Source: a virus. Taken from it: 34,403 nt of DNA. This document shows positions 11,163 to 32,838 of the stretch, one piece after another. The first letter of the stretch is position 1. Every line of letters begins with the position of its first letter. The position numbers were made by a program, and so were the translations under genes. Below the pieces are notes generated by a model. It did no database searches, was not told the DNA's origin, and was given only the letters and a program-made list of their open reading frames with translations. The DNA is taken from the IMG/VR virus record IMGVR_UViG_3300037502_000635, positions 1-34,403 of that record; one strand, 5' to 3'.

Positions 11163-11750
11163 CTAAGTCCCCTGACGCAATCTATTGCGACGCAATAATG
11201 AATCAATGGTTGCGCGTTTTTTATTCATGGCCATTGCTATTTGTTTCGACGTTTGTCCTAATTCCCGCATTTCTAAAACTTGCTGAATTTCATCATTTGT
11301 AAACACGGCTCTATGATGGTTTTCGCCTTTCGGCATTACTCTACGCCCTTTTTGCAGGCAATCTTCGTTATTTGTTTTGATGTCAGCAACTCGCAAATGT
11401 GCTGGATTGCAGCAAATTCGGTTGTCACAAAGGTGCATCAAAAACCCGCGCGCCTTTTTATCTCGCGGCGCGTGTAATTCAATTTCACCAGGATGCGCCA
11501 AGTTATAAATAACTCGGTGAGCGTAATAACCAACGTCATTAATCCAAGTTCGCCCATATCCTGATTCCGTTACGTATCCTACCCATGGCCAACATTCATC
11601 AGGCTGTCGAATATCGACCTTGCTCCACAGCATTTCCGGCGTGTTCGCTGGTCTGCCTGGATTTGCTGAAACTTCAACGCCTTTTTTCTTTCTTAAATAT
11701 TCCCTCATGTAAGCGTTATGTTTCAAACGCTGTTCTTCAGTTTTTTTCAT
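11163..11750 (-). CDS. HNH homing endonuclease inserted between gp4-like and gp10-like genes
   Basis: A 195-residue free-standing HNH enzyme. The HNH/zinc region includes YYAHRVIYNLAHPGEI (75-90) and LMHLCDNRICCNPAHLRV (104-121, H106, N115, H118), the zinc-finger-type HNH pattern. The C-terminus carries a resolvase-like helix-turn-helix DNA-binding segment (ELGQTSKQIAMAMNKKRATI, 163-182). The N-terminus is Lys/Arg-rich. ATG 11750 has GAAAGGG 8 nt upstream; a TTG at 11765 is the alternative. The gene breaks the P22 order gp4-gp10 and is preceded by a very AT-rich gap, both signs of insertion. Confidence 0.88.
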   Translation of the reverse strand: MKKTEEQRLKHNAYMREYLRKKKGVEVSANPGRPANTPEMLWSKVDIRQPDECWPWVGYVTESGYGRTWINDVGYYAHRVIYNLAHPGEIELHAPRDKKARGFLMHLCDNRICCNPAHLRVADIKTNNEDCLQKGRRVMPKGENHHRAVFTNDEIQQVLEMRELGQTSKQIAMAMNKKRATIDSLLRRNRLRQGT

Positions 11751-11769
11751 AACAAGCCCTTTCAAAAAG

Positions 11770-26616: not shown

Positions 26617-26782
26617 TCGATTCCCCTTCGCACAACTCATCGTCGCCTTTGCTCAATCGCGTCAGCAACATTTGATAAATTGCTAATGAGGTTTCAGCCT
26701 GAATCACAAAAGTTTGTGCCTTTTGCAACTCACGCTGAACCTCACTAATTTCAGCTTCGATAAACTCTCGGCTTATTTCCAT
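26606..26782 (-). CDS. Small helical protein, 58 aa
   Basis: MEISREFIEAEISEVQRELQ is followed by KAQTFVIQAETSLAIYQMLL: one long helix and an acidic C-terminus (GDDELCEGESNGD). The second helix resembles the short leucine-zipper-like proteins found in phage structural blocks. It overlaps the 54-residue basic gene by 11 nt and shares one base with the stop of the preceding 194-residue gene. Function unknown. Confidence 0.68.
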   Translation of the reverse strand: MEISREFIEAEISEVQRELQKAQTFVIQAETSLAIYQMLLTRLSKGDDELCEGESNGD

Positions 26783-27366
26783 TACTGGTCAGAAACCATC
26801 AGATAGTAAGCAGTGCCAGCACTGTCAACAATCTTGATCTTGTGCGACAGGGCTGCAGAACCCTTGACCGTTACCAACGCAGCAGGCACGTTCATTAGGT
26901 TGCCAATGGTGCCAGTGTTGCTGTTGGTAAAGCGCATAAATGCCGCCGAACCGGGCAGGGTTACGCTGCTTGGGAAATCCGAATCAACCTGAATTGCAGC
27001 CAATGTACCGCCAGGCGTTACGCCAGCAGCCACGCCCAAAGTGGCACGCAGCGCGTTAGCTGCGCCACTGATCGACCCGCCGCTATTCACGGACAAGCTA
27101 ATGTGTGCGCCGTTGGTGGTCTGGCCAGCGCCCTGAGCTGCGGTTACTTGCGAAAATGCACGCAGTGTTTCACCAGCGCCAGCGCCAGCAAAATTCACAC
27201 GGGCATAAAAGCCGCGCATATCACCCGACTTGTGGGTGGTCTTGGCGTAAGTCTGCGTCAAATTACCTGACGAAATAACGTCAATCGGGGCGGACGATGT
27301 GCCGACTTGATAGCTGTTTAATGCTGGGTCTGCGTAGGCAACCCCAATGGCTTGCGTATTAGGCAT
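26782..27366 (-). CDS. Probable structural protein, 194 aa
   Basis: The start MPNTQAIGVAYADPALNSYQ and the beta-rich, Ala/Gly-rich body (GDMRGFYARVNFAGAGAGET, TLGVAAGVTPGGTLAAIQVD) with a closing KIKIVDSAGTAYYLMVSDQ look like a virion surface or head protein; similar sequences occur in metagenomic phages. It lies directly before the small-protein cluster leading to terminase, unusually far from the coat gene. AAAGGATTATC precedes the ATG. The family is not recognised with certainty. Confidence 0.65.
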   Translation of the reverse strand: MPNTQAIGVAYADPALNSYQVGTSSAPIDVISSGNLTQTYAKTTHKSGDMRGFYARVNFAGAGAGETLRAFSQVTAAQGAGQTTNGAHISLSVNSGGSISGAANALRATLGVAAGVTPGGTLAAIQVDSDFPSSVTLPGSAAFMRFTNSNTGTIGNLMNVPAALVTVKGSAALSHKIKIVDSAGTAYYLMVSDQ

Positions 27367-27376
27367 GATAATCCTT

Positions 27377-27868
27377 TCAACAATTCCAGTTCTTTAGAGA
27401 TGCCTTCGCCCGTTCCGCTGGGCCTTTGGCGTGCTTTATTGCAAGATTTGCAGCTTGTGCCGCCGCAGTTCCCAGTTTATTCAATTGGCCGTTAACAATC
27501 AAAGGGTGCAAACGCCCGTGTTCGACGCGATGCATGACGCGCAAGTTTTCAACCCGATTGTCCCCATGCACCCCGTTAATATGATCGACTTGGTCATCTT
27601 TTTCTAATTGTTTGATAAAAGCATCGGCAACCAACCGATGCACTAAAAATGCTTTTCCTTGCACAGTGCGTGCAGACCCATCCCGAAAATGGACTTCCAC
27701 ATAAGGCTTTGTGCGCCCGTTTTCTTTTTTTGTATTTAATTTCATAATTCTTTCAGGAACAGGCACCAAAGAATTATTTTTGCCACGACGCTTGCGAGCA
27801 AGCGACTTAACTCGCCCTAAAGTGCTTATTTGGTACCGCCCTTCGTATCCACGAACGTCGGCCCACAT
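27377..27868 (-). CDS. NUMOD4/HNH homing endonuclease with a host-gene-like C-terminus
   Basis: A 163-residue protein. The N-terminus MWADVRGYEGRYQISTLGRV (1-20) is a clear NUMOD4 motif followed by KSLARKRRGK; the HNH core is VHRLVADAFI (76-85), DQVDHINGVHGDNRVENLRV (92-111) with H97, N104 and N108. The C-terminal 15 residues (GPAERAKASLKNWNC) resemble the end of the protein encoded just upstream (SRARASMRNWKC), suggesting that the element carries a replacement 3' end for its target gene. ATG 27868 lies one base after the upstream stop; an in-frame start further upstream would overlap the neighbour. Confidence 0.86.
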   Translation of the reverse strand: MWADVRGYEGRYQISTLGRVKSLARKRRGKNNSLVPVPERIMKLNTKKENGRTKPYVEVHFRDGSARTVQGKAFLVHRLVADAFIKQLEKDDQVDHINGVHGDNRVENLRVMHRVEHGRLHPLIVNGQLNKLGTAAAQAANLAIKHAKGPAERAKASLKNWNC

Positions 27869-27869
27869 T

Positions 27870-28148
27870 TCAATATCCCGAACATTTCCAGTTGCGCATT
27901 GAGGCTCTAGCACGGCTTCCCTTTTCACTTTTTTCTGCGATAGGTGCCATTCTCGCACAAAATGACGCTTTCCTGCCAGCGTCAGCCTTTGTTTTCGGGT
28001 TTGGTGCTGGTGGCTTTAAATTCGCATTGTTCTTGCGATTGTATTCGGCACGACCCTTTGCTGTCATCCCCGCGCCCTGCTCAGTCGGGCGGTAGTTCCG
28101 ATCTTTGCCGGTCGTGGTCTTGGCAATAGGTTTGTCGTGTTTAGCCAT
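27870..28148 (-). CDS. Small conserved phage protein, likely disrupted near its 3' end
   Basis: A 92-residue product: MAKHDKPIAKTTTGKDRNYR (1-20), PTEQGAGMTAKGRAEYNRKN (21-40), then KASFCARMAP. This is a widely shared phage protein of unknown function that usually ends in a (R/K)xWxC motif. Here NWKC is followed by SGY and a stop, instead of stopping after the Cys, and the next gene is an HNH endonuclease that encodes another NWNC ending. ATG 28148 is preceded by GAGG and overlaps the GroES-like gene by 8 nt. Confidence 0.82.
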   Translation of the reverse strand: MAKHDKPIAKTTTGKDRNYRPTEQGAGMTAKGRAEYNRKNNANLKPPAPNPKTKADAGRKASFCARMAPIAEKSEKGSRARASMRNWKCSGY

Positions 28149-28410
28149 TTTCAGCCTCAACAATCATGGCAATGTCGGCTTCCTGAATAATCTGGTAATC
28201 CTGCCCATCCACCTCGTGAACCGGCCAATCCAGATAAGTGCCGTTCCCGTACTTCACAAAATCCCCGACCTGAGCATCCCGCACTTGCGGTCCAACCGCC
28301 ACCACGGTGCCTTCGTTAAACTTTTCGTTGTTTGGAACGTACAAAATATCGGATAAGCGGCGCACATTTGGGCGCACGACCACCCGATCACGCAACGGTT
28401 TAATGTCCAT
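28141..28410 (-). CDS. Phage GroES-like co-chaperonin, 89 aa
   Basis: MDIKPLRDRVVVRPNVRRLS (1-20) is the GroES N-terminal strand; FNEGTVVAVGPQVRDAQVGD (31-50) and FVKYGNGTYLDW are the core barrel, and QEADIAMIVEA is the standard C-terminus. The mobile-loop segment (about 14-27, RPNVRRLSDILYVP) is altered: ILY replaces the usual GGIVL hydrophobic tripeptide that binds GroEL. Length is slightly below the bacterial 95-97. Phage co-chaperonins (T4 gp31 type) help fold the coat protein; that role is inferred. The upstream in-frame extension overlaps another gene and is rejected; AGGAAGG precedes ATG 28410. Confidence 0.87.
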   Translation of the reverse strand: MDIKPLRDRVVVRPNVRRLSDILYVPNNEKFNEGTVVAVGPQVRDAQVGDFVKYGNGTYLDWPVHEVDGQDYQIIQEADIAMIVEAENG

Positions 28411-29258: not shown

Positions 29259-29295
29259 GCAGCGTCCCCACTAGAGGAGTGAGAAGAGACGCTGC
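29259..29295 (-). terminator. Second hairpin directly upstream of the terminator
   Basis: GCAGCGTC (29259-29266) and GACGCTGC (29288-29295) form a perfect 8-bp stem; the TAG stop of the YbcO-like gene (29271-29273) lies in its loop. It is followed by TTTGA, then the main terminator stem, giving a tandem hairpin array. Confidence 0.6.
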
Positions 29296-29627
29296 CATTC
29301 TGTGTCATTTGGTACAGGTACGTCAACTGGCCACAGCCCCGCGTCCACCAAGTTTTCTACCGTCCGGCGATGCGCCAGCCACCACGCCTGCTGCCGTTCC
29401 TTACGCGACCATTTGCTGCCCTGATCGATGTCAAAATGGCACGACGCACATAACGCCGCTATCAAGTTATCGTCCGACTTTATCGACCGCCCCTTGCCGC
29501 CGCCCCAGTTCGTATGCGCTGCTTGCACAAAGTCATACGATCCGCAGAGCTGGCATTCTAGCGTAGCCACCAACCTCAATAGCTTCGGGCTGCGCACATA
29601 TTGGCGCTTTGGGATGCTAATCGTCAT
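29271..29627 (-). CDS. YbcO/DUF1364-like HNH nuclease
   Basis: A 118-residue protein. Zinc and HNH-type residues are in ECQLCGSYDFVQAAHTNWGG (24-43; C25, C28, H38) and LIAALCASCHFDIDQGSKWS (55-74; C60, C63, H64). This matches the YbcO-type phage recombination nucleases (DUF1364 family) found with NinB and related genes. The C-terminus (KERQQAWWLAHRRTVENLVD) is helical and basic. It closes the middle region and ends in a tandem-hairpin terminator. Likely a Holliday-junction or recombination-associated nuclease; activity is inferred. Confidence 0.8.
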   Translation of the reverse strand: MTISIPKRQYVRSPKLLRLVATLECQLCGSYDFVQAAHTNWGGGKGRSIKSDDNLIAALCASCHFDIDQGSKWSRKERQQAWWLAHRRTVENLVDAGLWPVDVPVPNDTEWQRLFSLL

Positions 29628-31166: not shown

Positions 31167-31568
31167 TCACCTCCATTCAATTGAGTTATATGCAGCCCAA
31201 GCCTCAAGCCATTCTATAAACTCACTTGCTTCCTCAACGCTAAATTTTTTACTTTGCAGCCCTAACTGGACCACCCGCTGCCCGTCCAAGCTCGGCACCA
31301 CCGACCCGATCCGGCGATCCGTGTCCGCAGCGAACTGGTCAATCAATAACCGCTTCCAATCCTCAACCGTCCAGCTCGACCCCGCCTGCCCCATCTGCTG
31401 CGCAATGTCGCCGATCATCGCGTGAAACTTGGCGTTCTGATCCAGCGTCCGGTTTAACGGCTTGATCTCAACGGTAAATTCCTTTCCGGCCTCTAACGCT
31501 GGCTTTAGCTTCGCCCAAAGTCGCTCCATCACGACCTTAGCCTGCGCTGGCGACCTTAATTCGATCAT
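31167..31568 (-). CDS. ninB: NinB-like recombination protein
   Basis: A 133-residue protein (lambda NinB is 146). Family traits are the central VEIKPLNRTLDQNAKFHAMI (33-52), QQMGQAGSSWTVEDWKRLLI (57-76) and a closing FIEWLEAWAAYNSIEWR. NinB binds single-stranded DNA and works with phage recombination in lambda. ATG 31568 begins the conserved part; the frame is open up to 31604 within the methyltransferase gene. Overlaps the methyltransferase gene by 32 nt. Confidence 0.88.
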   Translation of the reverse strand: MIELRSPAQAKVVMERLWAKLKPALEAGKEFTVEIKPLNRTLDQNAKFHAMIGDIAQQMGQAGSSWTVEDWKRLLIDQFAADTDRRIGSVVPSLDGQRVVQLGLQSKKFSVEEASEFIEWLEAWAAYNSIEWR

Positions 31569-32838
31569 AATTTTTGATGCAATATTGTTGGATGCGCTTA
31601 CCAATCCACGCCATGACAGGCACCGCCATGCTGTTGCCCAGCGCCTTGTACCGCGGGCCGTCAGGTGACTCTGGCTGCTTGCGCCAAGGGATGTTGGTAT
31701 AGTTGTCTGGGAAGCCCTGCAATCGCTCGCATTCGACCGGAGTCAGACGGCGCACAGCCATTGATTCAATCAATACATTTTCACCACCGGAGTTGCGCCC
31801 TTGCGCAAAGGCAACGTCACTGATACAAGGGTCTTGAGTGCCATGAATAATTGTTGGCTGCGCCACGCCTTGCAGGCTAGTGGTGTCCAGCGTGTACATC
31901 GTGCCGTCATCCTTCCAGCCTGCGCCGTTCTGATTTTTATCGCGGCTGCTTGTGTCGGCCAATGCTATCGGTTGTGCTGGCACAAACATCGGGCAACCAG
32001 CGTTGACATGCTGATCTTCTAATCCCTGTTTATCACCAAAATGAGCATCAAGCGTTCCAGTAATTTCAGCAGGCCACCGCGGAACTACTGGTTGAATCAC
32101 ATAAGCAGGATTTTGAGTTTCCCCAGCTGCGCCGGTATTTCTAGTGATTGAGCTACTAATAATGTCATATTTGATGCTTCCGATGGCTGGCGTCGAATAC
32201 GTCCTTACGCACTCCTCGTGGTTGTTGCGACTGATTCCAAAGCGCGCTGCAATGGTTCCGGCAACTTCTTGCCCCGTTTCTCTGCTCGGCGCAGTATCCC
32301 GGCGCAGGCTTTCTGGCTCAAAAAGAACCTCGGCGGCAGGTCGCCAATCTCCAAGGTATCCGACAACGAACACACGGCGGCGGCGCTGGGCCACTCCAAA
32401 GTACTGAGCGTCAAGCACTCGGTATGCGAACCCATACCTGAGTTCTGCCAGCGCCCCAAGGAAGGAACCAAAGTCCCGCCCACCGTTTGAACTGAGGACA
32501 CCCGGCACGTTTTCCCATACGCACCACTTGGGTCTAAAGTGGTCAAGAATCCCGCAATAGACAAGGGCAAGGTTGCCCCTTGGGTCTGCGAGTCCTTTGC
32601 GAAGTCCGGCGACGGAAAAAGATTGGCAAGGGGTTCCACCGACCAAAAGGTCAATTGCTCCAAGATTCCACTCCTTGTAGTTGGTCATATCGCCAAAGTT
32701 TTTAACAGTTGGGTAATGATGCGCCAGCACAGCCAAAGGAAACGACTCAATCTCTGCAAATCCTGCTGGCTCCCAACCAAGTGGGTGCCACGCAACCGTT
32801 GCAGCTTCAATCCCTGAACATACCGATAGGTATCTCAT
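31537..32838 (-). CDS. C5-cytosine DNA methyltransferase
   Basis: A 433-residue Dcm-type enzyme. Motif I LSVCSGIEAATVAW (4-17), IV GGTPCQSFSVAG (67-78, catalytic Cys71), VI WENVPGV (108-114), VIII AQRRRRVFVVG (150-160), IX RRLTPVECERLQGFPDNYT and X YKALGNSMAVPVMAW are all present, so it should be active. The long stretch between VIII and IX (about 185-355) is variable and rich in Asn/Thr/Gly, a large target-recognition region. It probably modifies phage DNA to escape host restriction. It overlaps the nuclease gene upstream by 4 nt. No partner restriction enzyme is seen. Confidence 0.94.
   Translation of the reverse strand: MRYLSVCSGIEAATVAWHPLGWEPAGFAEIESFPLAVLAHHYPTVKNFGDMTNYKEWNLGAIDLLVGGTPCQSFSVAGLRKGLADPRGNLALVYCGILDHFRPKWCVWENVPGVLSSNGGRDFGSFLGALAELRYGFAYRVLDAQYFGVAQRRRRVFVVGYLGDWRPAAEVLFEPESLRRDTAPSRETGQEVAGTIAARFGISRNNHEECVRTYSTPAIGSIKYDIISSSITRNTGAAGETQNPAYVIQPVVPRWPAEITGTLDAHFGDKQGLEDQHVNAGCPMFVPAQPIALADTSSRDKNQNGAGWKDDGTMYTLDTTSLQGVAQPTIIHGTQDPCISDVAFAQGRNSGGENVLIESMAVRRLTPVECERLQGFPDNYTNIPWRKQPESPDGPRYKALGNSMAVPVMAWIGKRIQQYCIKNYDRIKVASAG

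Follow-up and report, generated by a model that had tools for sequence, protein, structure and literature searches.

A small homing-endonuclease element, made up of a leader and a NUMOD4-HNH gene, appears to target the 3′ end of a DUF6321 gene in a virus record of 34,403 bases, the whole of which was analysed and is here called the window; a probability of about 0.87 is given to this reading, which draws on comparisons among sequences. As shown by comparison with relatives, the element was inserted just after the conserved C-A-R-M codons of the gene and supplied a foreign, equivalent 3′ end, with which the DUF6321 frame remains complete. The native 3′ end was pushed downstream, where in the window phage it now forms an in-frame C-terminal extension of the endonuclease.

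The locus lies on the minus strand, and its genes follow one another in the order GroES-like gene, DUF6321 gene, endonuclease gene with NUMOD4 and HNH_3 domains, and a gene starting MPNTQAIGVAYAD. The DUF6321 gene (27870-28148, minus strand; Pfam PF19846, E=6.4e-15; 80 relatives), which is the target, is now a chimera of a native 5′ part and a replacement 3′ end apparently carried in by the element (27870-27946, minus strand), the latter reading APIAEKSEKGSRARASMRNWKCSGY up to the stop. Directly upstream of it, a GroES-like co-chaperonin gene (28141-28410, minus strand) was recognised by eye from the sequence, and in phage DSL-LC05 an annotated co-chaperonin GroES gene is also located nearby. 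No DNA similar to the window was present in the phage collection searched. The loci used for comparison, designated by L-numbers (L005, L156 and so on), are all on uncultured contigs.

Two homologous, diverged endings had been noticed in a preliminary description of the window, and they are real: the DUF6321 protein ends in SRARASMRNWKCSGY and the HNH protein in GPAERAKASLKNWNC, each followed by a stop; they share 7 of their 12 terminal residues, with a nucleotide identity of about 58%. DUF6321 relatives without an HNH gene (L003-L006, L008, L013, L017, L019, L024 and others) end in KASFCARMEGVVKHAKGPAERAKASLKNWNC and are followed about 10 nt later by the same next gene. The last 62 nt of the window HNH gene (27377-27438, minus strand; KHAKGPAERAKASLKNWNC) are identical to the native 3′ end of DUF6321 in L005 except at one position (61/62), and the homology runs on into the next gene (26782-27366, minus strand). 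This gene marks an unchanged context, as it lies 10 nt past the displaced native stop and is found with the same spacing after the native DUF6321 stop in L005, L006 and L019; the right flank of the window is 97% identical to that of the empty locus L005. Because of the 61/62 match and of the same gene following, the homology of the endings is not due to chance. The upstream ending is unlike the native tail CARMEGVVKHAKGPAERAKASLKNWNC of HNH-free relatives, and its tail type precedes the HNH gene in 80 of the 80 top HNH relatives. The ending fused to the endonuclease is evidently the displaced original and the upstream DUF6321 ending the replacement. The preliminary description had thus been right in proposing a mobile nuclease element with a replacement 3′ end, but had taken the HNH-fused ending for the replacement. 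The terminal SGY of the upstream protein, regarded there as an anomaly, is ordinary, as DUF6321 proteins with the same tail often end in W-x-C-P/S-G-W/F/Y or similar without any HNH gene.

The comparison with HNH-free relatives, which had been recommended, revealed the insertion site as well as the original ending. On the upstream side, homology with these relatives breaks at window position 27947, inside the codon after C-A-R-M, and in blastn alignments it restarts at 27438. L005, L006, L106 and L111 all gave these two edges, 9 nt apart in the empty site, and others agree, so that 508 nt (27439-27946, minus strand) stand in place of 9 nt (AAGGGGTGG) of the empty site. The insertion is therefore located after the CARM codons (27946/27947) and not just after the final Cys codon, as had been supposed. 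The independent contig L156 has the same arrangement and the same junctions, hence the arrangement in the window is not an assembly artefact.

From its domains and catalytic motif, the window nuclease is predicted to be an HNH enzyme of the I-HmuI type. Pfam recognises NUMOD4 (PF07463, E=8e-12, 45.7 bits against a cut-off of 23.4) and HNH_3 (PF13392, E=7e-10, 38.8 bits against a cut-off of 24.8), and a profile search matches I-HmuI in the PDB (1u3e, E=1e-12). The residues of the H / D-H / N motif (H77, D95, H96 and N104), invariant in 17 relatives, are all present in the window protein. The AlphaFold model, with a mean pLDDT of 44, was too poor to use.

The nuclease gene most likely starts at a GTG codon (27911-27913, minus strand) inside the DUF6321 gene, which gives an ORF of 178 aa (27377-27913, minus strand) of which the first 44 nt are shared, in a different reading frame, with the DUF6321 3′ end. 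An ATG does stand one base past the DUF6321 stop (27866-27868), where the start had been placed previously, but in some other HNH-bearing loci the position of ATG 27868 is occupied by Ile, Glu or Ala. When 56 HNH-bearing loci with distinct gene bodies were compared with 55 HNH-free relatives, the HNH frame through the replacement tail was interrupted by stops in none of the former and in 37 of the latter (P=4e-16), and an in-frame GTG arising from Arg-Ala codons was found in 55/56 and 8/55 loci, respectively (Fisher test, P=1e-21), a frame contrast which may partly reflect lineage history, the controls belonging largely to another DUF6321 subfamily. Moreover, Lys at the position creating an HNH-frame stop is absent in the presence of the HNH gene and occurs in 20 of the 55 HNH-free loci. 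A Shine-Dalgarno sequence precedes the GTG in 56/56 loci, which is not independent evidence because the E-K-G codons yield one anyway. A start far upstream (GTG at codon -30) was rejected as a universal start, 12 of the 56 loci having a stop about 24 codons upstream.

Codon diversity points in the same direction: in the replacement tail it amounts to 0.35 in HNH-bearing loci and 0.62 at the same codons in HNH-free loci (bootstrap interval of the difference 0.22-0.30), while it is equal in the gene body (0.60 and 0.62, respectively) and reaches 0.59 in the HNH core. Statistically, the replacement tail of HNH-bearing loci is thereby shown to be constrained in the HNH frame too, its DNA apparently coding for both proteins. 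Two residues of the HNH extension differ between the window and L156 through changes which are silent in DUF6321, and the protein constraint on the extension is therefore loose.

Upstream of the GTG and spanning the 5′ junction, a block of about 30 nt (27931-27960, minus strand; TTGTGCGAGAATGGCACCTATCGCAGAAAA) is conserved as DNA in HNH-bearing loci (TTtTGtgctAGaATGnnnCCtATcGCAgAAAA), with very low third-position entropy over codons 48-57, even though the HNH frame does not extend over it in many of these loci. HNH coding does not account for this conservation, since many loci have an HNH-frame stop before the leader, which is possibly a nuclease-binding or expression-control site. A promoter would be a possible cause: TAGAAT is found in 42/56 HNH-bearing and 3/55 HNH-free loci, yet it is absent from the window, and a promoter consensus scan at the window leader found nothing there. 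Local RNA folds of the tail region did not outperform those of shuffled sequences (z from -0.1 to 1.7), and no repeats of the leader motif beyond chance were present in the window.

The arrangement is not restricted to the window. All 80 top relatives retrieved by an HNH profile search lie directly behind a DUF6321 gene with the tail type P-I/V-A-x-K-x3-G-S-R-A-R/K-A, and the ninety-odd HNH relatives with at least 68% identity, which come from different phages, are all behind a DUF6321 gene with the replacement tail type. A scan with a divergent HNH member gave the same picture, none of the close relatives (at least 68% identity) lying anywhere but behind a DUF6321 gene of this tail type. HNH relatives which are more distant and occupy other sites have no W-x-C end, in agreement with the earlier attribution of this end to the neighbouring gene rather than to the HNH family.

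Furthermore, occupied and empty sites can be paired, with flanks which are 94-95% identical on both sides for L156/L106, 95-96% identical for L235/L078 and near-identical for L235/L045. Presence or absence of a gene at one site between near-identical flanks is what a homing element is expected to produce, and these pairs represent such a case. The left (5′) junction falls at the same codons in the window, L156, L235, L242, L225 and L192; L186 and L188 deviate from it by no more than about 10 nt. The right junction differs among occupied loci. In L192 the complete native tail GVVRNAKGPAERAKASLRNWKC comes straight after the HNH stop codon; 20-24 codons of it are fused in frame to the HNH gene in the window, L156, L186/L187 and L188; only the last 8-10 codons, in frame with HNH, are found in L173-L179, L176, L183, L184 and L221; and the native tail is absent in L235, L242, L225 and L228. 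The displaced tail was also matched to empty relatives in L186/L381 and L188/L404. The native tails displaced are of different types, ending in GPAERAKASLKNWNC and PMKDEKGKPTRKAASLKRWKC, and several insertion events must therefore have taken place.

The different parts of these loci are not equally similar. Between L186 and L196, identity is 96% in the tail, 83% in the HNH gene, 64% in the gene body and 40% downstream; between L186 and L235, similarity is confined to the stretch from -88 to +354 nt relative to the HNH ATG; and between the window and L156, the values are 95% for the tail, 91% for the HNH gene and 80% for the body. The tail and the HNH gene appear to move as one cassette between different hosts. 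Taken as a whole, the locus has the features of an element which replaces the 3′ end of its target, with a foreign 3′ end in frame directly upstream of the nuclease gene and, downstream of it, a displaced native end which is closer to empty relatives than the replacement is.

The replacement tail is not exclusive to HNH loci, which was ruled out by its occurrence, with different codons and often with the ending W-x-C-P/S-G-W/F/Y, in a large HNH-free DUF6321 lineage of another phage group; the replacement end could plausibly have come from this lineage originally. The DNA signature typical of HNH loci is retained in the DUF6321 tail of the HNH-free loci L275, L280 and L296/L349 (10/11 sites), probable HNH losses which left a scar, and in part in the HNH-free L258 and L333. 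Two intermediate HNH relatives, L429 (60%) and L430 (55%), are located behind DUF6321 genes with quite different tails and have a conventional start past the stop, perhaps the ancestral arrangement.

These last two loci, with DUF6321 genes keeping their own tails, and the natural occurrence of the replacement tail type without HNH would also fit an ordinary free-standing HNH gene between DUF6321 and the next gene, the tail then being a matter of flank co-conversion or allelic variation and the C-terminal likeness one of chance or convergence. Flank co-conversion is known for phage homing endonucleases (PMC2988022); in the comparison of the window with L005, an upstream co-conversion tract is not distinguishable from the general variability of the region. 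The free-standing explanation is nevertheless unlikely to hold, since convergence is ruled out by the near-identity of the fused end with the L005 native tail, which already refutes its C-terminal part, since the native tail is duplicated and not just replaced in the window, L192, L186 and L188, and since the tail sequence is also under constraint in the frame of the HNH gene.

The in-frame fusions could alternatively mean that the HNH protein with its DUF6321-derived C-terminus has been domesticated as a phage protein with a function of its own, the tail for example guiding HNH to the partner of DUF6321, and that its mobility belongs to the past. Fusions of this kind occur in several lineages, every remnant that can be recognised continues the HNH frame, and the differences between the displaced tails of the window and L156 are all synonymous. 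However, these synonymous differences partly match variants in native tails (L005, L106) and may reflect recombination, and most HNH relatives lack a fused tail and have kept their own short C-terminus, so that domestication is considered improbable.

A self-splicing intron, with an exon 1 reaching to CARM, an intron bearing the HNH gene and KHAKGPAERAKASLKNWNC as exon 2, would join the first exon and the native tail in frame and give a normal DUF6321 protein, but it is very hard to reconcile with the locus. No Rfam family, whether of group I or II introns or of other structured RNAs, was matched in 3.9 kb at E values up to 1, an outcome which covers the search for a group I core proposed in the preliminary description along with an intron-like joining of exon 1 to the second ending. 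The 508-nt insert is almost without non-coding sequence, only the leader of about 33 nt before the GTG lying outside the HNH frame, and there is therefore no room for a group I core. In addition, the upstream ORF is closed by a 3′ end of its own which looks complete and functional, the native gene has lost 9 nt at the junction, and the RNA folds do not exceed those of shuffled sequences. An intein was rejected, as the DUF6321 frame ends at 27870, ahead of the HNH core, and HNH is in another frame.

For the element which replaces the end of its target, we infer homing activity from these patterns. The HNH protein would nick or cut near CARM in the DUF6321 gene of a co-infecting phage without the element, leader, tail and HNH gene would be copied together from the occupied genome during repair, and the altered tail would shield the occupied allele from the nuclease. 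Once displaced, the native tail would be redundant and could remain intact (L192), become fused (window, L186, L188 and others) or be lost (L235, L228, L242). In-frame fusion is perhaps favoured because the native stop would stay beside the start codon of the next gene, which in most fused loci is within about 1 nt of the stop or overlaps it.

Homing nucleases usually spare the host gene by means of introns, inteins or intergenic sites. Replacement of the end of the invaded gene is a fourth way, documented in yeasts and fungal mitochondria and found here, repeatedly, in phages. In Torulaspora and Lachancea yeasts, WHO elements consist of a nuclease gene and an upstream 3′ end of the target FBA1, and each integration replaces the 3′ end while the old end is pushed downstream and decays (PMC7282813). 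There too, the mobile unit is a nuclease gene with a target 3′ end, and the history of the 5′ part of the target differs from that of its 3′ part; WHO nucleases, however, are intein-derived LAGLIDADG proteins with zinc fingers, unlike the phage NUMOD4-HNH nuclease of the window, and their gene lies apart from the FBA1 end (by 588 bp in strain L09), whereas the window HNH gene overlaps the target 3′ end out of frame (PMC7282813). The window element works like a WHO element and is not a member of that group, having an HNH nuclease and DUF6321 as target instead of FBA1. The mitochondrial mORFs of Allomyces atp6 and Glomus atp6, atp9, cox2 and nad3 are inserted endonuclease ORFs with a foreign C-terminal part, and here as well the native C-terminal copy stays downstream and matches insert-free relatives (PMC3630166). 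They differ in their LAGLIDADG or GIY-YIG nucleases, in their mitochondrial location and in that dual coding is not reported there; moreover, the Glomus atp6 mORF shares the reading frame of its host gene, while in the window the host gene stops and the nuclease is in another frame (PMC3630166).

Among phages, the ShiLan-type insertions hidden in methylase genes are similar in being HNH genes without intron or intein, with an ORF in a frame other than that of the host gene and a GTG start shortly into the insert; they lie within the host gene, whose own frame runs on across the entire insert, with neither replacement of the gene end nor a displaced copy (PMC11855218). Free-standing homing endonucleases, such as the T4 seg and mob genes and the I-HmuI-like HNHs of Skunavirus, share an I-HmuI-type HNH beside a presumed target, a start near or overlapping the upstream stop and an expectation of flank co-conversion, while in the portions of these sources searched no carried replacement gene end or displaced duplicate is described (PMC2988022, PMC12724721). 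No paper on a phage nuclease which carries a replacement end for a gene was found in the literature covered, from which subscription journals were mostly absent.

Among the loci compared here are occupied and empty sites, displaced tails both intact and fused, and probable scars. Nuclease homing can produce chimeric phage genes and new protein fusions, and the overlap offers a natural case of dual coding, where relaxed codons reveal what the loss of the nuclease costs. For annotation, the result is a warning that such HNH genes may begin inside the upstream gene.

In other phages with the same gene neighbourhood (L500, equal to L301; L501/L502; L503), a GIY-YIG endonuclease occupies the 5′ end of the gene which follows DUF6321. 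The start of the endonuclease is fused to native first codons of that gene (for example LAYSGTVGT, MATSGTVSTTI and MAYSDTYGQ), and its stop overlaps, as ATGA, a replacement start which restores the gene (MSYSGTVGTTVI, MSTSGTVSTTVI and MSYSDTYGQTV at their beginnings). These elements appear to be a mirror image of the HNH element, providing a new 5′ end for the gene after DUF6321. On balance, it is probable that the HNH loci represent a class of phage homing element with the endonuclease gene overprinted on the 3′ end of its target, in which the nuclease cannot be gained without a new, presumably cut-resistant target end, and that together with the GIY-YIG elements there are at least two independent intron-free ways into genes without breaking them.

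Two more HNH-type genes, of other families, are located elsewhere in the window (11163-11765 and 29271-29627, minus strand), one with a zf-His_Me_endon domain and one DUF968-like, just under the Pfam cut-off. Another possible dual-coding region is at 32205-32663, where a 152-aa ORF inside the cytosine methyltransferase gene (31537-32838, minus strand), in another frame, matches phrog_16143 (DNA methyltransferase; E=4e-9).
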